DNA of 64,000 nucleotides from Jiangella anatolica (GTDB taxonomy: Bacteria; Actinomycetota; Actinomycetes; Jiangellales; Jiangellaceae): contig NZ_POTW01000017.1 in assembly GCF_003236295.1 (NCBI RefSeq), forward strand, positions 1 through 64,000. Reading direction: 5' to 3'. Position numbers and translations under genes: made by a program. Position 1 is the stretch's first letter. Each line of letters opens with the position of its first letter. The notes beneath the pieces were generated by a model. That model made no database searches. It was given only the letters and a program-made list of their open reading frames with translations, and was not told the origin of the DNA. Below, in pieces: positions 27,218 to 48,580 of the stretch.

Positions 27218-28227
27218 CACCGGACCACCGTCCCCTCCCGCAGCGACTCGGTCACCGCGGCGCCGAGCCGCAGCGACGCCAGCCCGGCCGCCGTCGACGT
27301 CTCCGGCTCGGTCCGCGTCCGCACGCAGGACACGAAGTGGGCCAGCTGCCGGTCGAAGCACTCGTCGTTCCACGGCCGCTCGAACCGGACCTGCTCGGTG
27401 CGCAGCGTGCCGTCGTCGTCGCGCGTGGTCAGCGTCGCGACCTGCTCCGGCCGGTCGATCAGCGCGACGCCGCGCGGCCCGAGGATGCGGAACTCACCCT
27501 TCGGTGAGACCGGGAAGAACCAGCCGATCTCCATTCGGGCGAGGTCGCCGTTGTCGTACTCGACCAGCGCGGCGGCGAAGTTCTCGCCGTTGAACTGCTG
27601 CTGCGAGCGCAGCCCGGCGGCCCGGACGGCGACCGGCGCCGCGTCGTTCAGGTAGGCGACGTAGTCGGCGAAGTGCGCGCCCTCGTGCAGGTATGACGGC
27701 CCGTGCGCGAGGAAGTCCTGGATCCGGCCGACGTGGACGGTGTCGGCGGCGTCGTAGCGCTCGTCGTAGCCGCCGAGCGTGTAGACGACCGGCGACCCGA
27801 TGAGGCCGTCGTCCAGCCACTGCCGGGCGGCCCGGACCAGCGGTGAGAACCGGTTCTTCAGCCCGATCTGGACGATCCACCCGGACGCCGACGCGGCGTC
27901 GTGCACCCGCTGCGCCGATGCGACGTCGACGGCCATCGGCTTCTCGCACAGCACGTCCAGCCCGGCGCCGATGGCCGCGAGCGTGAGGTCCGGCGCGATG
28001 TGCGGCGGGACGGCGATGACGGCGGCCCGCGCACCCGCGGCCAGCGCCGGCTCCAGCGACGTCCACGCCGCGACGCCGTACTTCGCCGCGGCCGCCTCGC
28101 GGTGCGCCGCGACGACGTCGACGACGCCGACCAGGGTGACGTCGGGGGAGCGGTCAAGCGCCGGCAGGTGTCCCGTCGTCGCGATGTCGCCGCAGCCCAC
28201 CTGCACCACGGGCAGGGTATCGGTCAC
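27214..28227 (-). CDS. Gfo/Idh/MocA-family oxidoreductase (operon A)
   Basis: 337 residues. The N-terminal Rossmann fold has the VGCGDIATTGHLPAL nucleotide-binding segment and the family EKP motif (CEKPMAV). The C-terminal substrate domain shows LHEGAHFADY, the catalytic His-Asp type motif. Such enzymes oxidise sugar or cyclitol hydroxyls with NAD(P). Next to lactonase-like amidohydrolases and a DapA-family aldolase it would supply a lactone or keto-sugar (inferred). GTGA overlaps at both ends. Confidence 0.9.
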   Translation of the reverse strand: MTDTLPVVQVGCGDIATTGHLPALDRSPDVTLVGVVDVVAAHREAAAAKYGVAAWTSLEPALAAGARAAVIAVPPHIAPDLTLAAIGAGLDVLCEKPMAVDVASAQRVHDAASASGWIVQIGLKNRFSPLVRAARQWLDDGLIGSPVVYTLGGYDERYDAADTVHVGRIQDFLAHGPSYLHEGAHFADYVAYLNDAAPVAVRAAGLRSQQQFNGENFAAALVEYDNGDLARMEIGWFFPVSPKGEFRILGPRGVALIDRPEQVATLTTRDDDGTLRTEQVRFERPWNDECFDRQLAHFVSCVRTRTEPETSTAAGLASLRLGAAVTESLREGTVVRW

Positions 28228-28976
28228 GTCAGCCCCAGAAGTCGTTCGGCGTTGCGGTACGCCAGCGCGGCGGCGTCGCCGTCCGGCAGCTCCGCCAGGA
28301 TCGCACGATGGACGGACAACCGGTGCCGGCGCAGGTCCGGGTCGCCGAAACCGCCGTCGGTGCCCAGCGTCAGCTTCGCCACCGGGACCCGGCGCACGAT
28401 CTCGCGGAACACCGCCCGCGGCGCCGTCCCGCACATCGTGATGTGCACGTTCGGGTACCGCACCGCGGCCGCGACGGAGTCCTCCCACAGGTCGAACAGC
28501 CCGCCGTGCGCCAGCACCACCGTCAGCTCCGGGAACCGGGCCGCCAGCCGGGCGATCTGCAGCGGCGACGCGTACGGCGGGGTGCCGTCGTGCATGACGA
28601 ACGGCAGCCCGCGCTCGATCGCCGCCTCCGCCACCGGGTCCATGTACGCCTCGAGCGGCGAGAACCCCTGCATCCACGGGTGCAGCTTGATCGCGTGGAA
28701 GCCGCGGTCGGCGCAGCGGCGCAACTCGTCGGCGGCGTCGGGCCGGCGCGGGTCGACGCTGCCGAACGGGAGCAGCCGGCCGTCGGACCCGGCGCACACC
28801 TGTGCGACCACGTCGTTGCCGGTCACGGCGTCGTAGGCGAGCCCGTCCAGCGTCATGACGGCGGCCCGGGCGATGCCGAACCGGTCCAGCTCCGCCAGCG
28901 CGTCGGACTGGCGCCAGGACGCCCACGCCGGCGCCGCCGCCGACGGCAGATGCGTGTGCAGGTCGACGAGGCTCAC
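28224..28976 (-). CDS. Amidohydrolase 2 (COG2159-like), intact metal site
   Basis: 250 residues, TIM barrel. Metal-binding pattern is complete: HxH in VDLHTHLPS, the loop IKLHPW, His in FVMHDGT, His in VVLAHGG and Asp in LGTDGGFGD. Family members hydrolyse lactones or decarboxylate aromatic acids. It lies directly after a degenerate paralogue with a 4-nt overlap, which suggests that the two proteins form a complex (inferred). Start GTG at 28976. Confidence 0.85.
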   Translation of the reverse strand: MSLVDLHTHLPSAAAPAWASWRQSDALAELDRFGIARAAVMTLDGLAYDAVTGNDVVAQVCAGSDGRLLPFGSVDPRRPDAADELRRCADRGFHAIKLHPWMQGFSPLEAYMDPVAEAAIERGLPFVMHDGTPPYASPLQIARLAARFPELTVVLAHGGLFDLWEDSVAAAVRYPNVHITMCGTAPRAVFREIVRRVPVAKLTLGTDGGFGDPDLRRHRLSVHRAILAELPDGDAAALAYRNAERLLGLT

Positions 28977-29707
28977 GCGGCCACCCCCAGCAACGTGGCG
29001 GCGGCGCCGCCGAGCACCGCGGCGCGGTCGTCGCCGGACAGGCCCGCCCGGTCCACCCGCTCCAGTTCCAGCGCGACGTCGTTGAACGGCGCGTCGCTGC
29101 TGAACAGCACCCGGCCCGCGCCGAGCGCCGTCACCAGCGCGGCGATCAGCGACGCCCCGTTGTACGCGGTCTCCGCGACCAGGTTCGGCGCGCCGGTCAG
29201 CGCCGGCAGCAGGTCGAGGGAGAAGTCGGTGCGCCCGGACCGGCCCATGACGAACGTCAGACCGGGCCGGCGCAGCGCCAGCTCGGTGAGTTGCAGCGGC
29301 TCGCTCGCGACCGGCACGCCGGTGACGACGTAGACCGGCCGGCCGTGCTCCTCGGCGACGTCGAGCACCGGCTCCAGCAGCGGCGACAGCAGCCCGAACC
29401 CTTGAACGGACGGCGCCAGCTTCAGCCCGCGCGCCCCGGCCGCGAGCGCCCGCCGCAGCTCGTCGCAGGCGCGCGAACCGTACCAGGGGTTGACCGTGGC
29501 CCAGTGCGCCAGCCGGTCCGGGTGCGCGGCGCACCAGCCGGCCAGCGTCCGGTTGCCGTCCTCGTTGTCGACGGCGAGCCAGCGGCCTACCGGCCCGACG
29601 ACCGCGCGGCCGACGCCGCCGTCGTCGAGGACGCGCAGCAGGTCGTCGACGTCCAGCGTCGGCAGGCTGGGATGCTCGCCGGCCGCGACGTGCGCGTCCG
29701 TCGTCAC
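28973..29707 (-). CDS. Degenerate amidohydrolase-2 paralogue
   Basis: 244 residues with the same barrel pattern as its neighbour (AHWATVNPWYG, ARGLKLAPSVQGF, LFSSDAPFND), but most metal ligands are lost: DAHVAAG keeps one His and lacks the second, the strand equivalent to FVMHDG reads YVVTGV, and the equivalent of VVLAHGG reads FVMGRSG. Only the last Asp (SSDA) remains. It may be a structural or regulatory partner of the intact enzyme encoded next. The GTG at 29707 overlaps the DapA-family stop by 4 nt. Confidence 0.8.
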   Translation of the reverse strand: MTTDAHVAAGEHPSLPTLDVDDLLRVLDDGGVGRAVVGPVGRWLAVDNEDGNRTLAGWCAAHPDRLAHWATVNPWYGSRACDELRRALAAGARGLKLAPSVQGFGLLSPLLEPVLDVAEEHGRPVYVVTGVPVASEPLQLTELALRRPGLTFVMGRSGRTDFSLDLLPALTGAPNLVAETAYNGASLIAALVTALGAGRVLFSSDAPFNDVALELERVDRAGLSGDDRAAVLGGAAATLLGVAA

Positions 29708-30621
29708 AGGGCCGGCTCCGCCCGCCGGTAGCCGCCGCGGTCCAGGTGCCCGGCCAGCGCCGCGCGGTCCTCGGCGCGCAGCGGCACCAGCGGCAACCGC
29801 ACCGCCGGCCCGCCGCGGCCGAGCAGGTGCATGGCCTCCTTGATGACGGTGATGTGGTAGCCCGGCCGGGACGCGCGCAGCGCCGCTATCGGCGCGATCC
29901 GCTCCGCGACGATCGCCGCGTGCCGGTCCGCGTCGCCGGCCAGCGCGGCCGCCCACACGTCCAGCGCGACGGCCGGGTCCAGGTTCACCAGGCCCGACGT
30001 CATCGCGACCGCGCCCATCCGGGCGTAGTCCACGGCCGGCAGCTCGGCCATGCCGTTGATCCACACGTAGCGGTCGCCGAGCCGGTCGACGCAGCGGGCG
30101 AACAGGTCCTGGTCGCCGGCCTCGTCCTTCACCGCGACGGCGCCCTCGACCTCGGCCAGCCGCTCCAGGTCCTTCTCGTCGTAGACGGCGCCGTCGGTGC
30201 TGAACACGATCATGCCCAGGCCGGACGCGGCGCCGATCTCGCCGTAGTGGCGGACCATGCCGTCGCCGTCGGGGTTGACGAAGTACAGCGGGTTGACCAT
30301 GAGCCCGTCGGCGCCCGCGTCGGCCGCCGCCCTGGCCAGCCGCGTCGCGATGGCGGTGGAGTGGCCGACGCCGGCCAGCACCGGCACCCGGCCGGCGACG
30401 GCGTCGACGGTCTCACGGACCAGTGCGGCGTACTCGGCCTCCTCGAGCGCGTAGAACTCGCCGACGCCGCCGGCCACCACGACCGCCCCGGCGCCGCTGC
30501 CGGCGAGGAAGGCGACGTGTGCGCGCTGGCTGTCGAGGTCGAGGGAACCGTCGTCGTGCATCGACGTCGGGGCGAAGGCGAGGACGCCGTGCAGCGAGGC
30601 GCGCAAGGTCTGCAGTTCCAC
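29704..30621 (-). CDS. DapA-family aldolase/dehydratase (operon A)
   Basis: 305 residues, TIM barrel of the N-acetylneuraminate lyase/DapA superfamily. The Schiff-base lysine is in AVAVKDEAG (K165 from this start). The usual YNxP tyrosine motif is replaced by FSTDG, which speaks against true dihydrodipicolinate synthase and for a keto-deoxy-sugar-acid enzyme (for example a 5-dehydro-4-deoxyglucarate dehydratase or KDG-type aldolase). I chose the GTG at 30621, which has GGAAAGG 6 nt upstream; a GTG at 30636 is possible. It is the first gene of operon A. Confidence 0.85.
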   Translation of the reverse strand: MELQTLRASLHGVLAFAPTSMHDDGSLDLDSQRAHVAFLAGSGAGAVVVAGGVGEFYALEEAEYAALVRETVDAVAGRVPVLAGVGHSTAIATRLARAAADAGADGLMVNPLYFVNPDGDGMVRHYGEIGAASGLGMIVFSTDGAVYDEKDLERLAEVEGAVAVKDEAGDQDLFARCVDRLGDRYVWINGMAELPAVDYARMGAVAMTSGLVNLDPAVALDVWAAALAGDADRHAAIVAERIAPIAALRASRPGYHITVIKEAMHLLGRGGPAVRLPLVPLRAEDRAALAGHLDRGGYRRAEPAL

Positions 30622-30649
30622 GGTTGGCCTTTCCACGAGGGGGACGGCT

Positions 30650-30661
30650 CTGGTATATCAG
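30650..30661. promoter_or_regulatory. Candidate GntR operator with built-in -10
   Basis: CTGGTATATCAG is a palindrome with one mismatched pair, 28 bp before the DapA-family start and between two divergent transcription units. Its minus strand contains TATACC, a plausible -10. The embedded GntR/FCD protein is the likely binder (inferred). Confidence 0.4.
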
Positions 30662-30743
30662 ACATCAGCCGCTACTGAACAGCCCGATCCGCGTCGGGTC
30701 GATGGGGCGCCGGGACGCGGACGAGCCGATCACTGGAGGACCC

Positions 30744-31943
30744 ATGCGACACCACTCGACCGTCCTCGGCCAGCCGATCGCCGTGCCCGACCAGGCCGGC
30801 GACGAGGGCCACGTGCTCGTGGTCCTGGCCGACGTCGACGACTTCGAGGTGAGCCGGCTGGCCCACGGCGACGACTGGGCCACGGGGATGCTCGACGCCG
30901 CCGCTGCCGCCGTCGAACGCAGCGCCGCCGGCTACGCGCCGGACCAGCACGGCCCCGTCGTCCCCGTCCCGCCGGACGCATGGATGGTGACCTTCCACGG
31001 CGCCGACCCGGTCGAGCTGCGCGCCACCGGGCGCCGGTTCGCAGCACTGGTGCGCGACCGCGTCCGGGCCGCCTGCGGGATGGCCGTGACGGTGGGCATC
31101 AGCGGGACGCGCACGGGCGCCGCGCGGCTCGAGGCGGCGACCGCGGAGGCGGTGGTGGCGCTGGACCACAAGCTGGTCAGCGGCGGCGACGCCGTGTACG
31201 ACCTGGCCGACGTCCGGCCCGCGACGCCGGACGGGACGGTGGCCGCGCCGGTGCCGGTGCCGGACCGGGTGGAGGAGCGGCTGGCCCGCTGCATCCGCCG
31301 CGGCGACGCGACCGGCGCGGTCGCGACGCTGCGGTCCTGGATCGAGCGGGTCAGCGCCGTCGACGGCGTCACGCCCGACGTGCTGCGCGAGTGGCTCGCG
31401 GCCGAGGTGCTGTACGCGCTGGAGATCGCCGGGCAGCGGCGCCTGTCCGACGGGTCGACGGACTGGATCGCCGCGGTGTCGCGGCTGCCGCTCAACGAGG
31501 TGGTCGAGATGTACGACATCCACGACCGCTCCTACCTGGTGCTGTGGCTGGAGCAGCTGCTGCCCCGGATCGTCGCGTCGCACGCGGCGCCGTCGCCGGC
31601 CCGGCACGTCCTCGCCGTCGTCGAGCGCTACATCCAGGACCACTACGCCGACGACCTGCGGCTGGTCACCGTCAGCGAGGCGGTGTTCGTCAGCCCGTAC
31701 TACATCAGCCACCTGTTCCAGCGCGAGCTCGGGACGACGTTCCTCAAGTACCTCACCGCGGTGCGGATGCGGCACGGGCGGCGGCTGCTGGCCGAGACCG
31801 ACCTGCCGGTCGAGCTGATCGCCGAGCAGGTCGGCTACCAGGCGCCGAAGCGGTTCCGCGAGCTGTTCAAGCGGACGTTCCACGTGACGCCGAGCGAGTA
31901 CCGCCGGCAGGTGGCGGCGCCGGCGCTGCGAGCCGTCGGCTGA
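30744..31943 (+). CDS. AraC-family regulator with degenerate GGDEF-like domain
   Basis: 399 residues. The C-terminal 100 residues are a double AraC helix-turn-helix (VSEAVFVSPYYISHLFQREL, ELIAEQVGYQAPKRFRELFK). The N-terminal 180 residues follow a GGDEF fold (VLADVDDFEVSRLAHG..., then DAWMVTF where GGDEF would stand, then MAVTVGISG), but the signature itself is gone, so it is likely a sensor and not a cyclase. GGAGGA lies just before the ATG at 30744; an in-frame ATG at 30702 is an alternative. It overlaps the amidohydrolase gene by 1 nt and is divergent from operon A. Confidence 0.85.
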   Translation: MRHHSTVLGQPIAVPDQAGDEGHVLVVLADVDDFEVSRLAHGDDWATGMLDAAAAAVERSAAGYAPDQHGPVVPVPPDAWMVTFHGADPVELRATGRRFAALVRDRVRAACGMAVTVGISGTRTGAARLEAATAEAVVALDHKLVSGGDAVYDLADVRPATPDGTVAAPVPVPDRVEERLARCIRRGDATGAVATLRSWIERVSAVDGVTPDVLREWLAAEVLYALEIAGQRRLSDGSTDWIAAVSRLPLNEVVEMYDIHDRSYLVLWLEQLLPRIVASHAAPSPARHVLAVVERYIQDHYADDLRLVTVSEAVFVSPYYISHLFQRELGTTFLKYLTAVRMRHGRRLLAETDLPVELIAEQVGYQAPKRFRELFKRTFHVTPSEYRRQVAAPALRAVG

Positions 31944-32833
31944 TGGGGATCGTCGACGTCCACACCCACGTGATGTGGTACCCGGACCACATCAGCGACC
32001 GGACCGCCGGCGAGGCGCTGGCGGCGAAGCTGGTCAAGCTGGAGCGCAGCGGCGGGCTGACCAACTCCGCCCGGCTGGACCTGCACTGCTACGACTCCAC
32101 GCCGGAGGACCACTGGGCGGCGGCGCAGCAGGCCGACCGCGTCGTCGTGTTCGGGATGGCGGCCAAGCCCACCGGGTTCGACGTCCCCAACGACGTCATC
32201 GCCTCCTACGTCCGGGAGCACCCGGACCGGCTCGAGGGCTGGGCGTCGGTGAACCCGGGGGAGCCCGGCGCGCTGGACGAGCTGGTCCGGTGCGTGGAGG
32301 ACCTGGGCCTGCGCGGCCTCAAGGTCGGGCCGACGTACCAGCACTGGGACCCGCGCGACCCGTCGCTGTGGGGTGTGTTCGAGTACTGCGCGACGCACGA
32401 CCTGCCGGTGGTCATCCACCAGGGCACGACGTTCCCGACGACGGCCCGGCTGGAGTACGCCCAGCCGCTGCTGCTGGAGCGGCTGGTCATGCGGTTCCCG
32501 TCGCTGCGGGTGATCATCGCCCACCTCGGCCACCCCTGGGAGGAGGACGTCGTCGCGCTGATGCGCAAGGCGCCCAACGTGTGGGCCGACATCTCCGCGC
32601 TGCACTACCGCCCGTACCGGTTCTGGCACGCAATGACGACGGCGTTCGAGTACGGCGTGACCGGCAAGCTGCTGTTCGCGTCGGACTTCCCGAGCGCGAC
32701 GGTCGAGCAGACGCTGGAGGGGCTGCGCCGGGTGAACGACGTCGTCGCCGGCACGCCGCTGCCGACTCTGCCGGTGGACGTGCAGGACCAGATCGTGCAC
32801 GAGAACTGGCGCCGCTTCTTCCGCACCACCTGA
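31943..32833 (+). CDS. Amidohydrolase 2 family metal-dependent hydrolase
   Basis: 296 residues, full-length TIM barrel with complete ligands: HxH in VDVHTHVMW, His in VVIHQGT, His in VIIAHLGHPW and Asp in LFASDFPSA. Family members include lactonases and non-oxidative decarboxylases (ACMSD type). It begins in a TGATG overlap with the AraC gene, so this regulator probably controls it. Third intact amidohydrolase-2 domain of the region. Confidence 0.88.
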   Translation: MGIVDVHTHVMWYPDHISDRTAGEALAAKLVKLERSGGLTNSARLDLHCYDSTPEDHWAAAQQADRVVVFGMAAKPTGFDVPNDVIASYVREHPDRLEGWASVNPGEPGALDELVRCVEDLGLRGLKVGPTYQHWDPRDPSLWGVFEYCATHDLPVVIHQGTTFPTTARLEYAQPLLLERLVMRFPSLRVIIAHLGHPWEEDVVALMRKAPNVWADISALHYRPYRFWHAMTTAFEYGVTGKLLFASDFPSATVEQTLEGLRRVNDVVAGTPLPTLPVDVQDQIVHENWRRFFRTT

Positions 32834-32838
32834 CCTTG

Positions 32839-32924
32839 AATGATCACGTTAAGTTGGGCTGCTCGCGCTCCACGAGGCATGCATGCCTGGGGAAGCGGGA
32901 GCAGGCCTGCTTGACGTGATCATT
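32839..32924. repeat. 86-nt nested palindrome, terminator-like dispersed repeat
   Basis: Outer arms AATGATCACGTTAAG (32839-32853) and CTTGACGTGATCATT (32910-32924) pair with one mismatch. Inside, TGCTCGCGCT-type arms pair imperfectly, and the centre AGGCATGCATGCCT (32875-32888) is a perfect 14-bp palindrome. The block GCTCCACGAGGCATGCATG matches GCTCTACCAGGCATGCATG of the hairpin near 24270 at 17 of 19 positions. It follows the amidohydrolase stop directly and probably ends that transcript. The rest of the gap to 33050 shows only the leader of the next gene. Confidence 0.65.
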
Positions 32925-33050
32925 TCCGGGTGGGCAAGTCCCGGCCCGGCGGGACAACTATCCGGCTGTTGCCGCCGCGCGTCGCGGGCCTAGGTTCGCG
33001 GGCAAGCGTCCTGGCTTCACCCGAATCGTCCCCCGGCCGTCAGGAGCACC

Positions 33051-35384
33051 ATGCCCTCCCTGCGTGCACGACTCCCACGACGTCTCACTGTGCTGGCCGC
33101 GGTCGCCGCGACGGCGCTGCTGGCGCCGGCCGCGGCCGCCCCGGCCGACCCGGTCGCACCGGGCGTGGTGGAGAACCTCGGCATCCCGATCTCCACCTAC
33201 CTCGTCCTCGACACCGTCCTCGCCGACGACGCCGACGGCGACCCGACGCTGTACGGCAGCACGTACAACGCGCCCAGCGACGGCGTGACGTTCTTCGGCG
33301 TCGACCCCGAGACCGGCGCCGTCCGCACCGAGCTGCCGATGCCCGGCGCTTGGGGCGGCTACCACGTCGCCGCCGCGCCGAACGGGCACGTCTACCTCGG
33401 CCCGCTCAACTCCGCCAGCGCGTCGCAACTGTGGGAGTACGACCCGGTCGCCGACACCGTCGAGCTGGTCGCGACCATGCCGACCGGCATCATGTGCTTC
33501 GGCATCACGGTGTCGCCGTACACCGGCAAGGTCTACTGCGGCCTGCACTCGGGCGCCGGTGTCTACGAGTACGACCCGGCCACCGGCGCCGTCCGCCTCG
33601 TCGTCTCCGCGCGCACCTACCCCAAGGGCCTGACGGTGCTGGACGCGAACCGGCTGGTCGTCGCGCAGGGCACCGACGCCAGCGTGCTGGTCGTCGACAT
33701 CGCCACCGGCGCGACGACCGAGGTGCTGCCCTCGGCGTACCAGCACTACTCGTTCGCGTACAACTCGGTGCGGATCGGCGACTGGGTGTACGTGCAGCTC
33801 GTGACGCCGGACGCGAAGATCGTCCGGTTCGACGCGGCGACGATGACGTTCGCCGGCGAGGTGCCCGGCATCACCGGGATGGGCTTCGCGCCGCAGGGCG
33901 GCGCGGACCCGGACGACTTCTACGCGATCGGCGGCGCCGGCATCATCGCCGTCGACGGCGACACGCTCGCCACCACCCCCACGGGCGTCGCGCCGACGTT
34001 CGTGTCGGCCGCCCGGATGTGGCCGGTCACCATCGGCGGCCAGCAATGGTTCACCAGCGTCAGCAGCAGCGGCCTGCTCGGCCGGTGGAACCCGGCGACC
34101 GGCGAGGTGTGGACGCACCAGCTGGCGCTGCCCGGCAACCCGACGAACATCACCGCGCTGGTCCAGGGCCCGGACGGCGACGTCTACGGCGGCACCTACG
34201 AGACCAACGCGCTGTTCGGCTACGACCCGGACACCGGGAACACGACCGTCTACGGCAACGTGGCGCCCGGGCGCACCGGCGAGATCCTGTCGATGGTGAC
34301 CGCCGGCAGCAAGATCTTCATCGGCTCCTACATCAACAACGTCGTCACCGTCTTCGACCCCGCGCAGCCGTGGAACCCGGGCACGTCGCCGACATCGAAC
34401 CCGCGCGACCTCGGCCCGGTCGGTGACAACCAGTACCGGCCGTGGGACATGGAGATCGGACCGGACGGCCGGGTGTGGGTGGCGTCGTCGGCCGCGTACG
34501 GCGCGCTGCGCGGCGCGCTGACCGCGATCGACCCGGTGACGTACGAGGTCGAGTCGTTCCGCGGCCTGGCCGGCGACCAGCACTTCTTCGCCGTCGCGGC
34601 CGGCGCTGACGTCCTCTACGCCGGCACCACCCGTTACGGGGACGACACCGACGCCGGCGGCGACGCCCGGCTGCTCACCGTCGACCCCGACGACGGCGCC
34701 GTGCTCGCGTCGGTCGTCCCGGTGCCGGGCGCGACCCGGATCCTCACCCTGGAGACCGCCGCCGACGGCACGCTGTACGGGTCGGCGGACGGGACCTGGT
34801 TCCGGATGGATCCGGCCACCGGCGTCGTCACCGTGCTGGGCGCGTTCCCGGGCGGCACGCTGCTCGGGCTGATCGACGGTCCCGGCGGCGACCTCTACGG
34901 CCACACCGGCGGCGCGGTCGTCCGGATCCCGGCCGGCACCGACACCGTCGAGACGGTCGCGACGCCGGGCAGCGGCTACTACCGGACGGTCGCGTTCGAC
35001 GACACGGACCGGGTGTACTGGGGCGCCGGCGCGTCGCTGCTGCGGACGCTGCCGGACATCGTGCCGGCGTCCACGACCACGACGGCGTCTCCAGGTCTGC
35101 GGCCGGCCTCGCCCGGCGGAGCCGCCGCCGTCACCGTCACGGTGGACAGCCCGCCGGGTCAGCCGCAGGGCACCGTCACCCTGCACCGGATCGCGGCCGA
35201 CGGCGCGCCCGGCGCCGCCGTCGCCACGGGGGAACTGACCGACGGCGCCGCCGTCGTCAGCGTCGCCGCCGCCGATGTCGGCGGGCCGGGCCGGTACACA
35301 CTGATCGCCACTTACGGCGGCGATCTGGCACATGCACCGAGCACCTCCGCACCGATCCGGGCCATCGTCGGCCCGGGCCGGTAA
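33051..35384 (+). CDS. Large secreted beta-propeller protein with Ig-like end
   Basis: 777 residues. A signal peptide with an Ala-rich cleavage site near 32 is followed by about 640 residues of short repeated strand blocks (DGDPTLYGSTYN, PNGHVYLGPLNS, KVYCGLHSG, GDVYGGTYETN, GDLYGHTG), typical of a propeller of the YVTN/PQQ or virginiamycin-B-lyase-like type. The last 90 residues form an Ig-like domain (GTVTLHRIA, GRYTLIATYGGD). No catalytic motif is recognised. It may bind or process an extracellular glycan. GTCAGGAGCACC precedes the ATG; the next secreted gene follows after 21 nt, so both probably share a transcript. Confidence 0.75.
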   Translation: MPSLRARLPRRLTVLAAVAATALLAPAAAAPADPVAPGVVENLGIPISTYLVLDTVLADDADGDPTLYGSTYNAPSDGVTFFGVDPETGAVRTELPMPGAWGGYHVAAAPNGHVYLGPLNSASASQLWEYDPVADTVELVATMPTGIMCFGITVSPYTGKVYCGLHSGAGVYEYDPATGAVRLVVSARTYPKGLTVLDANRLVVAQGTDASVLVVDIATGATTEVLPSAYQHYSFAYNSVRIGDWVYVQLVTPDAKIVRFDAATMTFAGEVPGITGMGFAPQGGADPDDFYAIGGAGIIAVDGDTLATTPTGVAPTFVSAARMWPVTIGGQQWFTSVSSSGLLGRWNPATGEVWTHQLALPGNPTNITALVQGPDGDVYGGTYETNALFGYDPDTGNTTVYGNVAPGRTGEILSMVTAGSKIFIGSYINNVVTVFDPAQPWNPGTSPTSNPRDLGPVGDNQYRPWDMEIGPDGRVWVASSAAYGALRGALTAIDPVTYEVESFRGLAGDQHFFAVAAGADVLYAGTTRYGDDTDAGGDARLLTVDPDDGAVLASVVPVPGATRILTLETAADGTLYGSADGTWFRMDPATGVVTVLGAFPGGTLLGLIDGPGGDLYGHTGGAVVRIPAGTDTVETVATPGSGYYRTVAFDDTDRVYWGAGASLLRTLPDIVPASTTTTASPGLRPASPGGAAAVTVTVDSPPGQPQGTVTLHRIAADGAPGAAVATGELTDGAAVVSVAAADVGGPGRYTLIATYGGDLAHAPSTSAPIRAIVGPGR

Positions 35385-35405
35385 CCCCCAGGAGAGGAGC
35401 CCGTC

Positions 35406-36728: not shown

Positions 36729-36734
36729 CCCTGA

Positions 36735-36773
36735 TCCGCCATGCCGCCCTGACACAGTGGGCGGCATGGCGGA
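36735..36773 (+). terminator. Perfect 15-bp hairpin
   Basis: TCCGCCATGCCGCCC (36735-36749) pairs perfectly with GGGCGGCATGGCGGA (36759-36773) across a 9-nt loop. It follows the propeller stop by 6 nt and ends 3 nt before the sigma-factor start, so it is either that gene's terminator, a leader hairpin of the sigma gene, or both. Confidence 0.7.
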
Positions 36774-36776
36774 CAG

Positions 36777-37319
36777 GTGTCTGGTGTGACGACGTTCTCG
36801 ACCTCGGCGCCCGCGGCGGCGTTCACCGCGCTCTACGACACGGCCTACGCCGACCTGCTCCGGTTCGCCCAGCGCCGGGTCGACCCGGCCTACGCGGAGG
36901 ACGTCGTCGCGGAGGCGTTCCTCGTCGCCTGGCGGCGGCTGGACGCCCTCCCGCCGAGGGCCGACGACGCGCGGGCGTGGTTGTTCGGCATCGCCCGCCA
37001 CGTCATCCTCAACGCGCACCGCTCGGCGCGACGGCAGCAGGCGCTCGCCGTCCGGCTGGCCGACCCGCCCGCCGCCGTCGCCGGAGCCGACGACGACCTG
37101 CTCGCCCAGCAGATCGACCTGTCGCGGGCCTGGCGGCGGCTGCCGGACACCCACCAGGAGGCGCTCGCGCTCGCCGTCCTCGACGGTCTCGACGCGCCCC
37201 GGGCGGCCGCCGTCCTCGGCATCACGCCGGTCGCGTTCCGGCTCCGGCTCAGCCGCGCGCGGCGGGCGCTGCGCCGCGCCCTCGATCACCCGTCCGTTCC
37301 CGAGAGGACCACGCCATGA
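36777..37319 (+). CDS. ECF-family RNA polymerase sigma factor
   Basis: 180 residues. Region 2 (about 12-80) contains YADLLRFAQRRV, AEDVVAEAFLVAWRRL and ARAWLFGIARHVI; region 4 (about 120-172) contains LPDTHQEALALAVLDGLDAPRAAAVLG and LRLSRARRALRRAL. It would direct polymerase to a small regulon. The start is GTG at 36777 or 36786; no clear Shine-Dalgarno. ATGA overlap with the next gene, which probably makes its membrane partner. Confidence 0.92.
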   Translation: MSGVTTFSTSAPAAAFTALYDTAYADLLRFAQRRVDPAYAEDVVAEAFLVAWRRLDALPPRADDARAWLFGIARHVILNAHRSARRQQALAVRLADPPAAVAGADDDLLAQQIDLSRAWRRLPDTHQEALALAVLDGLDAPRAAAVLGITPVAFRLRLSRARRALRRALDHPSVPERTTP

Positions 37320-38113
37320 CCAGCACCGACACCATCCTGCGCTCGCTCGACCCGGCGGCCGCCGACGTCGATCCGCACGGGCCACGGGCCCGCGCGGACC
37401 TCGCCCGGATCCTGGCGGCGCCGGCGGCGCCGGCGTCGCCGGCCGCGGCGCCGGCACCGCCGCGGCGTCGGCGGGTGCGCCGGCTGGTGCTCACGGCGGC
37501 GGCCGTCGCCGCGGCGGCCGTCGGGGCGAGCGTCCTCGTGCCGTCGCTGACCGGCGGGGACCGGGCGTTCGCGACCTGGACCGCGACTCCGTCGGCCGTG
37601 TCCGCCGGCGCGAGTGAGGAGATCGCCGACGCTTGCCGCGACGCGCAGCGCGACGGCGCCGGCGGGTTCGAAGCCGACCTCGCCGCCGCGACGGCGGCCG
37701 TCGCCGAGCGGCGCGGCGACTGGTCGCTCGCGCTGCTGGCCGGCGACGACGGCTTCTCCGCGCTGTGCATCACCGACGAGTCCACGCCGCTGTTCCGCGA
37801 CTGGATCGGCATGATCGGGGGGCCGGGTGGCTACACGGCGCCGGAACCGCGCTCGGCGTTCGTCTGGACGCTCGGCACCGGCACGGTCGGCGGCGGCGAG
37901 CTGTCGGTGGCGGCCGGCGCGGTCGGGTCCGACGTCACCGGCATGACCTACGACAGCGCCGAGCACGGCGTCGTCACCGCGACCGTCGCGGCCGGTCACT
38001 TCGCGTTCTGGCTGCCCGGCGACGAGCTGGAGAACGCGTCCGGCGACGGCGTCCCGGTCACCGTCACCTATGCGGACGGCACGACGGGGACGCTCACGCT
38101 GCGGTTCGGGTGA
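37316..38113 (+). CDS. Single-span membrane protein, probable anti-sigma partner
   Basis: 265 residues. An N-terminal cytosolic part of about 55 residues (Ala/Pro-rich, ending in the basic PPRRRRVRRLV) is followed by one membrane helix (VLTAAAVAAAAVGASVLV) and a 190-residue outer domain. The position, co-translated with an ECF sigma gene, suggests an anti-sigma or sensor protein, but the zinc anti-sigma motif HxxxCxxC is absent. It overlaps the convergent DegT gene by 20 bp. Confidence 0.7.
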   Translation: MTSTDTILRSLDPAAADVDPHGPRARADLARILAAPAAPASPAAAPAPPRRRRVRRLVLTAAAVAAAAVGASVLVPSLTGGDRAFATWTATPSAVSAGASEEIADACRDAQRDGAGGFEADLAAATAAVAERRGDWSLALLAGDDGFSALCITDESTPLFRDWIGMIGGPGGYTAPEPRSAFVWTLGTGTVGGGELSVAAGAVGSDVTGMTYDSAEHGVVTATVAAGHFAFWLPGDELENASGDGVPVTVTYADGTTGTLTLRFG

Positions 38114-39335
38114 GGCCGGCCGCGACCTTCGTCAGCGCGGCGGCGATGTCGTCGACGTCGGCGTCGGCGTAGTTCTCGTTCCACTGCAGCACGACCAGCG
38201 TGTCGTCGATCAGCCGCTCGGCCCGCGGGCAGAGGCCCACCGGGTAGGTCCAGTCGCGGCGGGCCGGCGGGCTGGTCAGCGGGAACCCGGATGTCCCGTA
38301 GGTGCGTCGCTCGGTGAACACCGGATAGCGGTACACCGGCGACTGCAGCCAGCCCGCGTGGGCCGGCACGCCCTCCGCCGTCAGCGCCTTGGCCCACCGC
38401 CGGTGGCCCTCGTCGACCACGAGGGGGAGGACCCACCAGGCGTGCAGATCGGGCCGGTCCGGCAGGTGCGCGCCGGGGAGGTCGCCGACGGCGGTCAGCA
38501 GCCGGGCGGCCTGCCGGCGGCGCCGCTCGACCACGTCCGGCAGCCGGCGCAGCTGGACGGCGGCGACGGCGGCGGTGAGGTTGGTCATCCGGTAGTTCAG
38601 CGCGAGGAACCGGTGGAACCGGCCCTCGGCGCGCGGCCAGGCCTTGTCGGAGAACAGCCGCATCCGCTCGGCCGTCGCGGCGTCGCTCGTGACACACAGG
38701 CCGCCGTCGCCGGCGGTGACGTGCTTGTACTGCTGCAGGCTGAAACAGCCGACGGCGCCGTAGGTGCCGACCGGCGGCGCGTCGGGGGCGGGGCGGGCGA
38801 GGTAGGCCTGCGCGCAGTCCTCGATCAGCGCGACGCCGGCGCGATCGGCCAGCGCCCGCAGCTCCGTCACCGGTGCGGCGGCGCCGAAGAGGTGGACGAC
38901 GAGGATCGCTCTCGTGCGCTCGGACAGCTGGGCCTCGACCGAGGCCGGGTCGAGGTTGCCGGTGAGCGGGTCGACGTCGGCGAAGACCGGCACGGCGTTC
39001 TGCGCGAGGATGGCGGCGATCGTGCCGAAGTCGGTCAGCGGCGTGGTGATGATCTCGTCGCCCGGCTCCGGGTCGATCGCGGCGACGGCCAGGTGGAGCG
39101 CCGCGGTGCCGGACGAGCTGGCGACGGCGTGCGGGACGCCGTGCAGCCGCGCCATCGTCGCCTCGAGGTCGCCCAGCCACGGCCCGCCGGCCGACGAGTT
39201 GAGGACGGCGCCGTCCAGCACGTCGAGCACGGCGGCGCGTTCCTCGGCGCCGAACGTCCGCCCCGCCGGGTCGAGCACGGTGGGCAGCGGGGTGGTGCGG
39301 ACGGGGGTGCCGCCGTCGACGGCGAGCCGGCTCAT
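38094..39335 (-). CDS. DegT/DnrJ/EryC1/StrS-family aminotransferase
   Basis: 413 residues, fold-type I PLP enzyme that usually transaminates keto-sugars. The PLP lysine is K204 in LQQYKHVTAGDGG, preceded by the IEDCAQAY aspartate that binds the pyridine N, and SSSGTAALHLA near 73. Family members typically work on nucleotide sugars, but no NDP-sugar genes are present here; the gene is last in the operon B direction with an ATGA overlap to a deacetylase-like gene. An aminated free sugar or cyclitol product is conceivable. Confidence 0.9.
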   Translation of the reverse strand: MSRLAVDGGTPVRTTPLPTVLDPAGRTFGAEERAAVLDVLDGAVLNSSAGGPWLGDLEATMARLHGVPHAVASSSGTAALHLAVAAIDPEPGDEIITTPLTDFGTIAAILAQNAVPVFADVDPLTGNLDPASVEAQLSERTRAILVVHLFGAAAPVTELRALADRAGVALIEDCAQAYLARPAPDAPPVGTYGAVGCFSLQQYKHVTAGDGGLCVTSDAATAERMRLFSDKAWPRAEGRFHRFLALNYRMTNLTAAVAAVQLRRLPDVVERRRRQAARLLTAVGDLPGAHLPDRPDLHAWWVLPLVVDEGHRRWAKALTAEGVPAHAGWLQSPVYRYPVFTERRTYGTSGFPLTSPPARRDWTYPVGLCPRAERLIDDTLVVLQWNENYADADVDDIAAALTKVAAGLTRTAA

Positions 39336-41008
39336 GCCGCGACCAGCCGCAGCGTCCAGCCGGCGAGGACGACCTGGGTGAAGCGGCGGCCGTAGCGCTC
39401 GACGTGTTCGTACGGCTCGGCGCCGGCCGGGACGAGGTGCGGCGGGAGCAGCAGCGCGACGCCGTCTCGGTCGCCGTCGACGGTGATGGTGACGCCGCCG
39501 TCACCGGCCGTCGTCGTGGTGATACGGAGGGCGCGCCGCCGCTGCGACCAGTCGGCGAGGGCGGCGCTGGTGTGGAAGGCGGCGCCGGCCGAGCGGAGCC
39601 GCTGGACCGCCGCGGCGAACGACGCCCGGACCTCGGCGTGGTGCTGCAGGTGCTGGCCGTGGAAGAGCAGGTGCACGACTCCGTGCCGGCGCAGCGCCTC
39701 GTCGATGAACGCGTCGCGCACCTCGTCCGTGCAGGTCAGCCAGAGGTCCTGGGTCTGCAGCGGCAGGTCGAGCACGTCGACCGGCCGGTTGCCGTGCGCA
39801 GCGGCCGTCAGCGGGTGGTGCGGGTGGCAGGTGCCGAACGGGAAGCCGATGGCGCCCTGGACGCTCGGCCCGTGGCTCTGGTCGACGCGCAGGCCGAGCC
39901 GCTCGCACCAGAGGTAGAACTCGTCCCACCCCTCCCAGCGGGTGAAGTGGTTCTTGTTCGTGACGATCCGCGCGCCGCGCACCTGGCGGGTCGCCCAGGC
40001 CAGCTGGTCGCGCAGCCGGTCGAACCCCCAGGTGCAGTCCGGCGTGTCCAGCATCGCGTTGTAGTGCAGCGCCGGCTCGTGCCCGGCGGCGACGACCTCG
40101 TCGTAGACGGCCTGCGAGTAGCCGCCCGGGTAGAGGAAGCACCAGGTCACGGGCACGCCGGCGGCGGCGAACGCGTCCAGCGCGGCGCGGGCGGACGGGT
40201 CGTCGTTCATGTCGGAGTCGTGGCTGACGTGGGCCGCGGCGGGCGCGCCGTCCGGCCACGGCGCGACGACCGGGATCGGTGTCGCACGCGCGTCGAGCAG
40301 CAGACCGAGCAGGACCTCGCGCCAGCGGTCGGCGTGGGCGGTGCCGAAGAACGGGAGGCTGCGGGTGGGCGGGTACTCGTGCGGGTACGGCGGTGCGTCG
40401 CCGAGCGTGGTGCGGTCCTCGGTCCAGGACAGCGCGATGCCGTCGTCGGTCTTCAGCAGGCCGTCGTCGACCGGCGCGGAGCCGTCGGCCGGGGGAGTGC
40501 CGTCGCGCTCGACGGGGTGGCCCTGGGTGATCCGCACCAGCGTGTGCCACAGGTCCGGCCCGACGACGGCGATCGTGCCGCGGCCGCGTGTTGTGGTGAC
40601 GATGGCCGGCCGTTCGTCCGCCCAGCGGGCGTGGACGGCGCCGGTGCCCGTCGCCGGCAGCGCCCAGCCGCCGAACGCGCGCAGCCGCTGCCCGCCGACG
40701 TCGACCAGCGCCTCGGCGGGCGCGGGCGACGCCGCGAGGCCCGTCCAGCCCGGGTCGTGTCCGCAGACGACGAGGCCGCCGCCGCGTTCGGCGTGCCCGA
40801 GCAGCGCCGCCGCCGTCCCCTCGTCCGGCTCGTCGACCACCAGCACGGTCGCCTCGTCGGCCGGCGGCGGCCCGTCGGCCAGGTCGTGGACCGTGGCGGG
40901 GACGCCGAGGATGGCCAGCGCCTCGGCCGCGGCCGGCCCCGACCACACGTCGCGGCCCTCGCCCCGCGCGGCGTCGGCCGCCTTCACGTCGGTGATGATC
41001 CGGATCAT
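39332..41008 (-). CDS. NodB-like (polysaccharide-deacetylase fold) protein, unknown substrate
   Basis: 558 residues, no signal peptide. The first 220 residues look like a GATase1/ThuA-like alpha-beta domain (TVLVVDEPDEGT, RGGGLVVCGHDPGW, GTIAVVGPDLWH). The middle part has a NodB-fold pattern: SHDSDMNDD with two adjacent Asp candidates, VTWCFLYPGG, GHEPALHYNAM and a C-terminal LLFHGQHLQHH. The last 80 residues are a beta-sandwich tail. It may act on an amide or acetyl sugar. Translationally coupled with the DegT gene. Start ATG at 41008, 67 nt after the nitrilase gene. Confidence 0.7.
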   Translation of the reverse strand: MIRIITDVKAADAARGEGRDVWSGPAAAEALAILGVPATVHDLADGPPPADEATVLVVDEPDEGTAAALLGHAERGGGLVVCGHDPGWTGLAASPAPAEALVDVGGQRLRAFGGWALPATGTGAVHARWADERPAIVTTTRGRGTIAVVGPDLWHTLVRITQGHPVERDGTPPADGSAPVDDGLLKTDDGIALSWTEDRTTLGDAPPYPHEYPPTRSLPFFGTAHADRWREVLLGLLLDARATPIPVVAPWPDGAPAAAHVSHDSDMNDDPSARAALDAFAAAGVPVTWCFLYPGGYSQAVYDEVVAAGHEPALHYNAMLDTPDCTWGFDRLRDQLAWATRQVRGARIVTNKNHFTRWEGWDEFYLWCERLGLRVDQSHGPSVQGAIGFPFGTCHPHHPLTAAAHGNRPVDVLDLPLQTQDLWLTCTDEVRDAFIDEALRRHGVVHLLFHGQHLQHHAEVRASFAAAVQRLRSAGAAFHTSAALADWSQRRRALRITTTTAGDGGVTITVDGDRDGVALLLPPHLVPAGAEPYEHVERYGRRFTQVVLAGWTLRLVAA

Positions 41009-41075
41009 TGCCGCCACGATAGGCAGCGGACCGGCCGCGCACAGGACGGATTCTTGCCGTCCGCGGGCCGGATCC

Positions 41076-41888
41076 TCAGCCGTAGAGCTCGGGGCGGCGG
41101 TCGGCGCGGTAGGTGGCGATCTCGCTCCAGCGGCGGGTGTCGGCGTCGTCGGTGGTGACCTCGGCGACGGCGACCCCTTCGGACGCGTCGAGGGCGGCGA
41201 GGACGCGGCCGGTCGGAGCGGCGACGGTGGAGTGACCGATGCTGGTGAAGCCGCCGCCGGAGCCGGCCAGGCACGACATGACGACCGGCACGCCGTTCTC
41301 AAGGGCGCGGGTCCGGGCCAGCGACCGCACCATCGACCCGTCCCAGCCCATGCCCGTCTGCCACGGGTCGGTGATCCAGTTGGTGGCGTTGACGATCATC
41401 GTCGCGCCGGCGTCGACCAGCGCCCGCACGTACTCGGGGAAGATCAGGTCGTAGCAGACCGTCAGCCCGAGCCGGCCGACCGCCGTGTCCACGACGACCG
41501 GCGCCGAGCCGGGGGCGTAGACCGTCCGCTCGGTGCTGAACAGGTGGGCCTTCCGGTACGTCGCCAGCCGCGCGCCGTCCGGGCCGAACAGCGACAGCGC
41601 GTCGTACAGGTCGTCGCCGGCGGACTCGATGACGCCGGCCGCGAGGTGCACACCGAGCGCCGCGGCCAGCGCGGCGAGCGACGCGGCGACCGGGCCGTCG
41701 GCGGGGGCGGCGACCTCGGCGGCGTCGGCGCGGGAGAACGGGTACCCCGTCACCGCGCACTCGGGGAACACGATCAGCTCGGCGCCGGACGCGGCGGCCG
41801 AGTGCGCCGCGGTGGTCATCGCGGCGAGGTTGGACGCCACGGCGCCCAGGACCGGAGCGACCTGGGCGCACGCGACGGTGACCGGCAT
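41076..41888 (-). CDS. Carbon-nitrogen hydrolase (nitrilase superfamily)
   Basis: 270 residues, standard length. Cuts a carbon-nitrogen bond of an amide or nitrile. The Glu-Lys-Cys triad is complete: E43 in FPECAVTG, K113 in YRKAHLF and C145 in VCYDLIFPE. The second conserved Glu region also fits. TGATG overlap with the FAH gene before it, so the two are coupled. The substrate is probably an amide of a sugar-acid or amino-acid type (inferred from operon B). Confidence 0.92.
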   Translation of the reverse strand: MPVTVACAQVAPVLGAVASNLAAMTTAAHSAAASGAELIVFPECAVTGYPFSRADAAEVAAPADGPVAASLAALAAALGVHLAAGVIESAGDDLYDALSLFGPDGARLATYRKAHLFSTERTVYAPGSAPVVVDTAVGRLGLTVCYDLIFPEYVRALVDAGATMIVNATNWITDPWQTGMGWDGSMVRSLARTRALENGVPVVMSCLAGSGGGFTSIGHSTVAAPTGRVLAALDASEGVAVAEVTTDDADTRRWSEIATYRADRRPELYG

Positions 41889-42769
41889 CAGACCGCCGCG
41901 GGGACGACGGCGCGCTCGTACGCGACCGGGTTCACCAGCGAGCCCACGCCCTGGACGGTGGCGACCATGGTGCCGCCGTCGTCGACCTTGCCGATGCCCG
42001 ACGGGGTGCCGGTGGCGATGATGTCGCCCGGCTCGAGCGTGATCCCGGCCGAGATGACGGAGATCAGCTCCGGCACGCCGAACACCATGTGCCGCGTGTT
42101 CGACGACTGCCGCACGACGCCGTCGGTGGTCAGCGACAGGTCGAGCCGGCCGGGGTCGGCGATCTCGTCGGCGGTGACGAGGTACGGCCCGCACGGCGCG
42201 AACGTGTCGAAGCCCTTGCTGTGATCCCACGGCTGGTTCTTCTCGATCGCGACCAACTGCAGGTCGCGCGCCGTCATGTCGTTGAGGACGGTGTAGCCGA
42301 GCACGACGTCGCGCCAGTCGTCGACGGCGACGTCGCGCGCCCGCGTCCCGATGACGACGGCCAGTTCGACCTCGAAGTCCAGCCGCGACGACCGCGCCGG
42401 GCAGCGGACGGTCTCGCCGTGCGGGAGTAGCGACGACGGCGGCTTGAAGAAGATCACCGGCTCGGCCGGGACGGCCTGGGCGCCCTCCTCGGCGTGCGCG
42501 ACGTAGTTGAGGGCGACGCAGACGATCTTCTGCGGGCGGGCGACCGGCACCTCGAACCGCGCCGACGCCACCGGCAGCGTGACCGCCGACGGCGACGAGG
42601 CCAGCGCGGCCGCGGCGGCGGACAGCCCGTCCACCCCGGACGACGCCAGCAGCGCCACCAGATCGTCGCCCGCGTCACCGGCGACCGGGGACAGGTCGAG
42701 CAGCGTGTCGTCGTCGAGGCGCGCGGCGGGGACGACCCCGGCGTCGGTGCGGATACGGCAGAGGAACAT
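41888..42769 (-). CDS. Fumarylacetoacetate hydrolase family protein
   Basis: 293 residues. An N-terminal beta domain is followed by the FAH catalytic fold: VALNYVAHAEEG, FKPPSSLLPHG, metal-binding Glu residues in DFEVELAVVIG, the YTVLNDMTARDLQ segment and GTPSGIG near the end. FAH-family enzymes cleave or hydrate 2-keto acids; in L-fucose- and L-rhamnose-type oxidative pathways they split 2,4-diketo-3-deoxy acids. TGATG overlaps at both ends inside operon B. Confidence 0.92.
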   Translation of the reverse strand: MFLCRIRTDAGVVPAARLDDDTLLDLSPVAGDAGDDLVALLASSGVDGLSAAAAALASSPSAVTLPVASARFEVPVARPQKIVCVALNYVAHAEEGAQAVPAEPVIFFKPPSSLLPHGETVRCPARSSRLDFEVELAVVIGTRARDVAVDDWRDVVLGYTVLNDMTARDLQLVAIEKNQPWDHSKGFDTFAPCGPYLVTADEIADPGRLDLSLTTDGVVRQSSNTRHMVFGVPELISVISAGITLEPGDIIATGTPSGIGKVDDGGTMVATVQGVGSLVNPVAYERAVVPAAV

Positions 42770-44586
42770 CAATGACCTCCTGCGAGCGGTGACGGAGAGC
42801 GGGCCGGCAGCCCCAGCACCCGGCGGGCGTTGCCGCCGAGCACCAGGGCCAGGTCGGCCGGGTCCAGCCCGGCGCCGAGCACACGCCCGACGCCGTACCG
42901 GGGGTCGATGAGGCACGCGTCGGTGCCGTGCAGGACGCGATCCGCGCCCAGGGCGTCGACCAGCCGGCGCAGCCAGCGGCCGGTCATCCAGGATCCGCAC
43001 GTCTCGGCCAGGATCGACGGGTGCCGCGTCCCGACGTCGATGGTGCGGCGGAAGCCCTCGACGGTGGCGCCGGAGTGGCCGACGATCAGCGGCAGCACCG
43101 GGTAGCGCTCCGCGACCGCGCCGAACAGCAGCGGGTCGCTGTGCGCCGTCCCGGCGAACCCGTGTGCCAGTACGGGCGCCCCCGCGTCGGCGGCGAGCCG
43201 CCAGATCCAGTCGTAGCCGGGGTCGTCGATCGGACAGTCGTGCGTGTCGGGGTGCAGCTTGAACCCGCGGACCAGCGGGGACGTCAGTTGCTCGGCCAGC
43301 AGCCCGGCGTCCTGCGGGCGGTTCGGGTTCGCGACCAGCCAGACGGAGAGCCGGTCCGGATGCGCCTCGGCGGCGGCCAGCGCGGCGGCGTTCCCGCCCG
43401 GCGCGTCGCCGCTGAAGATCGCGGCCAGGTGGGAGATGACGGCGTGCCCGGTGCCGGTCCGGTCGAACGCGGCCAGCAGGGCGCCGACGTCCGGGTGCGG
43501 CAGCCACGACGACGGCCAGCGGCCCAGATGCGCGTGCGCGTCGACGATGTCCGGCAGCTCGGCCCAGGTGTCCGGTGGTTCGGCTCCGGACGCCCGAACA
43601 GTGGCGTCGGCCGGGATCTTGTCGGCTGTCGTCGGCGAAGTGGCGTCGGCCGGGATCTCGTCGGCTGTGGCCGGCGACGTGGCGTCGGCCGGGATCTTGT
43701 CGGCTGTGGCCGGCGCCGGGCCGTTGGTGGTAGTCGGTTCCCGCCCGGCCGGGAGGGCTCCCACCCTAGGGGTGGGCCGCGTGAACGTGGCGTGAACCGC
43801 GGCCGGCGACGTGGCGGCGGGGGAGCCGGCCGCATCCACGGGCGGGCCGTCGGGGGAGCCGGCAGCGTCGTCCGACAGGCCGAGCAGCCGGGCCGCGGTC
43901 CCGCCGGCCACCGTCGCCCGGTCGGTCGCCGACAGCCCGGAACGCGACAGCAGGAACAGCGGCGCCGCGTCGTCGCGCACCGGCGCGCCGGTCCCGAGCA
44001 GCAACCGCGACGCGCCGTACCGCTCGACGAACAGCTCGAGGCCGTCGAGCGCGGCCAGGTAGGACAGGTCCAGGTGCAGCCGCGGCCGCCGGTCCATGAC
44101 GGGGAGCGCCTGCCGCAGCGTCCGGTACCCGATCCCCGCGACCACCACGTCGACCGTCGGCAGCGCGGCGCAGAGCGCGTCGAGAGCCGTCCAGTCGGTC
44201 TCCTCCAGGTCCACGAACACGGGGAGGCCGGCCCGCCGCAGCACGTCATGCAGCGAGCCGGCCTCCGGTCCCGTGAGGCTCCACCCGTGCCGCGCCGGCA
44301 GCAGCCACACCGCCCGCACCGACGCGGGCAGCGGGCCGTGCTCGCCCGCGTCCAGCGGCCCGAGCACGAACGCGGGCATCAGCCGCGGATGCCCCGCCAC
44401 CGCCTCGAGCAGCGCGGCATTCCCCAGAGCGGCGTCGTAGGTGACCGACACCGCGGACCGCACGACGGCGAACCCGAGACCGAACCGGTCGAGGTGCGCC
44501 TCGACGTCGGACACCGACCACGACGCGGACGCGTCGGACGGCCAGGGCCCGACGACGACGTTGGCGTCGATGCGCACGCCGCTCAT
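42769..44586 (-). CDS. Double amidohydrolase: degenerate N-half fused to intact C-half
   Basis: 605 residues. Two amidohydrolase-2 barrels are joined. The N-half (1-260) has lost the metal site: RIDANVVVG where HxH is expected, FVDLEET instead of the His strand, VVVAGIG instead of AHxG and LLGTGAPVRD without the final Asp. The C-half (about 341-605) is intact: IVDAHAHLGRW, LHPDTHD, VLAHGFAG, IVGHSGA, HGTDACL. Residues about 290-329 are three 13-residue repeats rich in Ala, Asp, Pro and Thr (unit like TADKIPADATSPA), a flexible linker. The order matches the separate degenerate and intact genes of operon A. ATGA overlap with the YetA-like gene. Confidence 0.85.
   Translation of the reverse strand: MSGVRIDANVVVGPWPSDASASWSVSDVEAHLDRFGLGFAVVRSAVSVTYDAALGNAALLEAVAGHPRLMPAFVLGPLDAGEHGPLPASVRAVWLLPARHGWSLTGPEAGSLHDVLRRAGLPVFVDLEETDWTALDALCAALPTVDVVVAGIGYRTLRQALPVMDRRPRLHLDLSYLAALDGLELFVERYGASRLLLGTGAPVRDDAAPLFLLSRSGLSATDRATVAGGTAARLLGLSDDAAGSPDGPPVDAAGSPAATSPAAVHATFTRPTPRVGALPAGREPTTTNGPAPATADKIPADATSPATADEIPADATSPTTADKIPADATVRASGAEPPDTWAELPDIVDAHAHLGRWPSSWLPHPDVGALLAAFDRTGTGHAVISHLAAIFSGDAPGGNAAALAAAEAHPDRLSVWLVANPNRPQDAGLLAEQLTSPLVRGFKLHPDTHDCPIDDPGYDWIWRLAADAGAPVLAHGFAGTAHSDPLLFGAVAERYPVLPLIVGHSGATVEGFRRTIDVGTRHPSILAETCGSWMTGRWLRRLVDALGADRVLHGTDACLIDPRYGVGRVLGAGLDPADLALVLGGNARRVLGLPARSPSPLAGGH
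43601..43717 (-). repeat. 3 x 39-bp in-frame tandem repeat (linker minisatellite)
   Basis: Three 39-bp units start at 43601, 43640 and 43679; each begins GTGGCGTCGGCCGGGATCT and differs at only a few positions. 39 is divisible by 3, so unit number can change without a frameshift. It encodes the linker between the two amidohydrolase halves. Confidence 0.9.
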
Positions 44587-48554: not shown

Positions 48555-48580
48555 CGTCTCTCCCTTCGACGTGAACGGGC

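Follow-up and report, generated by a model that had tools for sequence, protein, structure and literature searches.

The window analysed here is a stretch of 64,000 nucleotides of Jiangella anatolica (contig NZ_POTW01000017.1, positions 1 to 64,000 of the forward strand), a genome whose nearest named relatives are J. muralis, J. endophytica and J. ureilytica. Two operons on its minus strand, A and B, each encode an intact amidohydrolase barrel together with one that lacks most or all of its metal ligands (dead barrel), as separate genes in operon A and within one chain in operon B. The features concerned are the following.

25794-26549, minus strand: creatininase-family hydrolase, operon A
26546-27220, minus strand: GntR/FCD regulator, operon A
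27214-28227, minus strand: GFO/IDH/MocA oxidoreductase, operon A
28224-28976, minus strand: intact Amidohydro_2 barrel, operon A (A-intact), ligands HHHHHD
28973-29707, minus strand: dead Amidohydro_2 barrel, operon A (A-dead), ligands HAAVRD, predicted TIM barrel
29704-30621, minus strand: DHDPS/KdgD-like aldolase or dehydratase, first gene of operon A
31943-32833, plus strand: third amidohydrolase of the A-type locus, intact-looking, ligands HHGHHD
38094-39335, minus strand: DegT/DnrJ/EryC1/StrS aminotransferase, operon B, with relatives in 23 pair-bearing loci
41076-41888, minus strand: carbon-nitrogen hydrolase, operon B
41888-42769, minus strand: FAA-hydrolase family protein, operon B
42769-44586, minus strand: fusion protein of 605 aa, operon B
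42802-43551, minus strand: intact C-half of the fusion (residues 346-595), ligands HHHHHD
43552-43869, minus strand: Ala/Pro-rich linker of the fusion, of low predicted confidence and of a length that varies between species
43870-44574, minus strand: dead N-half of the fusion (residues 5-239), ligands NVLDGG
46747-49906, minus strand: sugar-type ABC transporter (two permeases and a solute-binding protein), operon B

Operon A (25794-30621) runs from the DHDPS/KdgD-like gene through the dead barrel, the intact barrel, the GFO/IDH/MocA oxidoreductase and the GntR/FCD regulator to the creatininase-family gene. The dead and intact genes share a 4-base GTGA overlap, and the dead gene in turn overlaps the DHDPS gene upstream of it by a second GTGA. 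Frames and coordinates are those of the preliminary description, which had placed the degenerate barrel ahead of the intact one with such an overlap. An AraC regulator and the third amidohydrolase are divergent from operon A on the plus strand; the latter, which adjoins the operon, was missing from that description.

In operon B the sugar ABC transporter is followed by a 720-aa protein (44583-46745), the fusion, the FAA hydrolase, the carbon-nitrogen hydrolase, a 558-aa protein (39332-41008) and the DegT aminotransferase. No significant Pfam family was found for the 720-aa and 558-aa proteins, the former matching GH127 only below the threshold (E 0.11). That the fusion joins a dead N-half to an intact C-half in one chain, as first proposed, was borne out by the frame, the coordinates, Pfam and the ligand read-out. 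Its linker is repeat-rich and measures 29-106 aa in the four Jiangella species measured; a stretch RVGxLPxGRG or similar (43738-43767 in the window), which may bind something, is kept in 7 of 7 Jiangella fusions.

Every half scores as Amidohydro_2 (PF04909, cut-off 26.4 bits): A-intact at 104.8 bits (profile positions 1-289), A-dead at 91.5 bits and the whole fusion at 139.1 bits, its C-half being the best stretch (about 102) and its N-half scoring 46.7. None of the barrels falls in a named NCBIfam family. Ligands were read with a profile built in this analysis, as the two His of HxH, the His of beta-4, beta-5 and beta-6, and the Asp of beta-8. A-intact and the fusion C-half carry the full metal and catalytic set HHHHHD, as do nearly all live partners elsewhere. 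The dead members lack it, with HAAVRD in A-dead and NVLDGG in the fusion N-half. The ligand loss described earlier is thus complete in the fusion N-half (six of six) but partial in A-dead, which lost only four of six and still has the leading His of HxH and the beta-8 Asp.

The A-dead and B-dead profiles (the latter from the operon B type) were searched in 297 genomes of the class, B-dead also in 396 genomes of the phylum and a wider B-dead profile in 35 genomes of the order of one further genome (G412). The neighbourhoods of dead-barrel matches were retrieved and each amidohydrolase domain was classed by its ligands. Among 57 dead-looking genes of the first set, 41 have an intact partner immediately downstream, seven are fused and five belong to loci of the type found on Jiangella contig C253, in which the intact partner lies two or three genes upstream of the dead gene. 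The remaining four comprise one at a contig end (L123), one whose partner has its predicted start placed too late (L128) and two dead-looking genes that are outside these families or ambiguous (L039 and L138). In the 41 neighbouring pairs the dead gene comes first, with a 4-base overlap in 30.

The reciprocal search with the B-intact profile in the 297 class genomes gave 44 matches at 275-376 bits, the next one scoring 151 bits. When coordinates were matched by eye, a B-dead barrel lay immediately upstream or in the same chain for 43 of these 44 genes; the remaining one lies at the very start of its contig, and in the same genome a dead barrel is found at the end of another contig. Scores were obtained for the eight or nine top candidates of each genome, which suffices because no genome had more B-type matches. 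This reverse search is a stronger test of co-occurrence than the search starting from the dead barrel. The pairing is therefore conserved in many genomes, as neighbours and as fusions, as the search for adjacent or fused pairs proposed in the preliminary description had anticipated.

Pairs also occur elsewhere. In G114, a member of the class with a small genome, the dead and intact genes precede genes read from their translations as MR_MLE, creatininase and FAA hydrolase. Of the 16 dead loci in the low-GC genomes of family f50 (same phylum), 13 have a full or partial intact neighbour and one lies at a contig end; in two genomes, G362 and G402, no intact partner was found within about 8 kb of the dead barrel. 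The two loci are L214 (G362:C39) and L215 (G402:C35); in the second, the dead gene is located between a class II aldolase gene and a SurE gene. On a Subdoligranulum plasmid the pair lies directly upstream of a nagA-like gene and two genes after a nagB-like gene (names read from the translations), with a sugar ABC transporter downstream. A Klebsiella plasmid carries live and dead barrels around a mannose-family PTS, in the same cluster but non-adjacent, and this operon has no match in E. coli genomes. The archaeal, Clostridia and Klebsiella cases each rest on single plasmid records. In the Klebsiella pneumoniae record (L212, CP067510, 5992-9911), the PTS flanked by live and dead barrels is followed by an ADP-ribosylglycohydrolase-family gene and GntR.

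The J. anatolica genome itself has 26 PF04909 matches and six dead/intact pairings, one of them fused, so that the pairings of operons A and B are more than chance. On contig C5 (L032) a dead gene (7161-7910) and an intact gene (7898-8707) precede a DegT gene. Contig C181 (L033) has two dead/intact pairs about 8 kb apart, each adjoining a DegT gene; DHDPS-like and epimerase genes lie between the two modules (G000:C181:40000-58000), and both pairs occur together in most Jiangella genomes sampled. On contig C253 (L034), an intact barrel, MR_MLE, a third amidohydrolase and a dead barrel are consecutive; DHDPS and a sugar ABC transporter come next. The amidohydrolase placed there between intact and dead genes is a relative of the one next to operon A. 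The two proteins are inherited together so strictly that the live one probably needs the dead one as a partner subunit.

Seven Jiangella genomes have dead-live fusions. Five haloarchaea also carry fusions, one dead-live and five live-dead proteins, which are single chains of 541-565 aa on plasmids. Halomontanus has the dead-live fusion with a live-dead fusion next door, and the other live-dead fusions are from Natrononativus, Haloprofundus, Natronosalvus and Halosolutus; in such live-dead chains, the live half sometimes has a residue other than His at the strand-4 position. Fusion seems to have happened separately in Jiangella and in haloarchaea, because the halves from the two groups are not each other's closest relatives and the order is reversed in five of six haloarchaeal chains.

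A maximum-likelihood tree was built from 87 domains. All 32 B-type dead barrels in it, which come from Actinomycetota, a Clostridia plasmid and a haloarchaeon, group together on a single branch (support 96/95) without any live member. A second, quicker tree placed the haloarchaeal live-dead and the Klebsiella dead barrels outside this branch, on long branches whose placement is unsure. Subgroups of B-dead mirror those of their live partners, and the distance matrices of dead barrels and partners correlate with r = 0.91 over 30 pairs, including paralogous pairs within one genome, as compared to 0.28 for the best of 5000 permutations. Such mirrored distances show transmission as a unit and are by themselves no proof of contact; co-inheritance in an operon could alone yield mirrored trees without contact.

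The A-type dead barrels form their own well-supported group apart from B-dead, and A-type pairs look like a lineage separate from the B-type ones. A tree constrained to keep all dead barrels together is only 7.7 log units worse (AU test, p-AU 0.202), and single and several origins are therefore both compatible with the data. Operons A and B had been presented as two arrangements of one pairing: both are indeed dead/live pairs, but their dead barrels fall in different clades, and a clear shared origin was not established by the AU test.

Elsewhere, a young-looking tandem pair (L132, G210:C36:73000-88000) consists of sister barrels reading HHHLHD and HHDFNA, possibly an independent start of the same process. 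Tandem duplicates of this kind are what would be expected if the pairing were merely a duplication with one functionless copy decaying. This explanation is highly improbable here, given an old and purely dead B-dead clade, dN/dS values of about 0.26-0.36 and a partner that is adjacent or fused for 43 of 44 intact genes. Pseudogene decay was rejected on these grounds for types A and B.

The required-subunit reading is consistent with the constraint on the dead genes. Between Jiangella species, dN/dS was 0.20-0.34 for A-dead and 0.26-0.36 for B-dead, within the 0.13-0.43 of live barrels and neighbouring genes. By this measure, the dead barrels are under purifying selection. In the B-dead clade, the six former ligand columns vary and are not among the best conserved ones, which are (fusion numbering) D7, G13, G55-N56, R94, P97, H100, E184, G191 and R194. 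R94 corresponds to a metal-adjacent Lys in the live partner, and the fusion of the window has Trp at this position. As judged from these columns, the dead protein is retained, though not as the old catalyst.

A retained pocket might serve a ligand sensor or allosteric regulator, the dead barrel binding a sugar-acid effector and tuning the live subunit. Pocket-side positions are in part kept in B-dead, where 84% have Arg instead of the Lys next to the metal and where a Pro (97%) and a His (73%) follow strand 4, and many invariant residues surround the former metal site in A-dead. The variation of the six ligand columns across the B-dead clade and the lack of a new pocket motif common to A and B make this role unlikely. 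Alternatively, the dead barrel could be an enzyme with a new, metal-free chemistry on the next intermediate, kept beside its paralog for channelling, which can also explain the fusions. Purifying selection and the two f50 genomes with a dead barrel but no intact partner nearby are compatible with this idea, which we consider quite unlikely, as the ligand columns show no conserved replacement set and pathway neighbours change between loci while the partner is constant.

The AlphaFold2 model of A-dead is a confident barrel (pLDDT 91.9, pTM 0.91) that matches solved Amidohydro_2 structures, 3cjp with Z 26.9 and ACMSD with Z about 24. An unrelated fold of the dead half, named earlier as a possible objection, is contradicted by this alignment and by the Amidohydro_2 profile. 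For the fusion, modelled on an alignment that mostly spanned the C-half, each half is predicted to fold (about 80 and 92) and the linker is without confidence; with a pTM of 0.57 and an unfolded linker, the model is silent on how the halves meet. The live half matches 4dlf and 4do7 (Z 24.9) and 2ffi (Z 23.9). No solved structure is close in sequence to the fusion, and those found for the operon A barrels are distant.

Neighbouring genes bear on the substrate. Sugar ABC permeases are found in about 30 loci and DegT in 23, and further context genes encode GFO/IDH, MR_MLE, DHDPS and FAA hydrolase, with a heparinase-like gene in L123. Because of these neighbours, oxidised or amino sugars are the suggested substrate class, the pairs probably acting in sugar, uronate or amino-sugar catabolism. 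COG3618-type lactonases and 2-pyrone-4,6-dicarboxylate lactonase also belong to PF04909, and the fold matches of the live half and the sugar-acid neighbours would suit a lactonase-like role. We know of no pseudoenzyme partner for either type of lactonase.

Enzyme-pseudoenzyme pairs are a known kind. For the present pairing, neither a described family nor anything relevant on its gene context was found in the literature searched, a coverage that leaves most subscription journals outside, in line with the preliminary description. Two known systems are instructive. ACMSD, a PF04909 enzyme, is a dimer in which Arg239 from the adjacent subunit is needed in the active site (PMC11650718). It shares family and fold with the pair but is a homodimer of identical live subunits, whereas one subunit of the dimer proposed here is an old paralog, or fused half, without a metal site. 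In the ATCase of P. aeruginosa, an inactive amidohydrolase-superfamily chain (pDHO) is required for activity and stabilises the complex (PMC7053772). This pseudo-dihydroorotase serves an unrelated enzyme, while the dead barrel is paired with its own live amidohydrolase-2 paralog. From Arg239 acting in trans and from this pseudo-dihydroorotase, we infer that the dead barrel takes one place of a dimer.

We therefore consider it probable that the locus encodes two obligate enzyme-pseudoenzyme heteromer pairs of PF04909, in which physical association and residues supplied in trans are inferred features. Counting against it are the low pTM of the fusion model, the two f50 dead barrels with no intact gene within about 8 kb, and the non-adjacent genes of the C253-type loci and of the Klebsiella plasmid. 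The intact barrel would bind the metal and perform the chemistry, most likely a hydrolytic reaction, as a lactonase or amidase on a sugar-acid or amino-sugar intermediate. The metal-site-less barrel would substitute for one subunit of the ancestral homodimer, stabilise the live subunit and probably line the mouth of its active site with residues in trans, as Arg239 does in ACMSD. More tentatively, these may be ancient heteromeric amidohydrolases of bacteria and archaea, in which a pseudo-subunit replaced half of a homodimer and completes a composite active site, for instance with the Arg and His after strand 4; this broader proposal is possible rather than probable.

Automatic annotation names both halves "amidohydrolase family protein", and the dead partner is therefore overlooked and assays of the live chain alone may fail. 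Separate genes, dead-live fusions, live-dead fusions and several co-diverged paralog pairs per genome make up a natural series, which lets the transition from homodimer to obligate enzyme-pseudoenzyme pair be tested. The family also points to a set of sugar-acid or amino-sugar pathways that have yet to be characterised.
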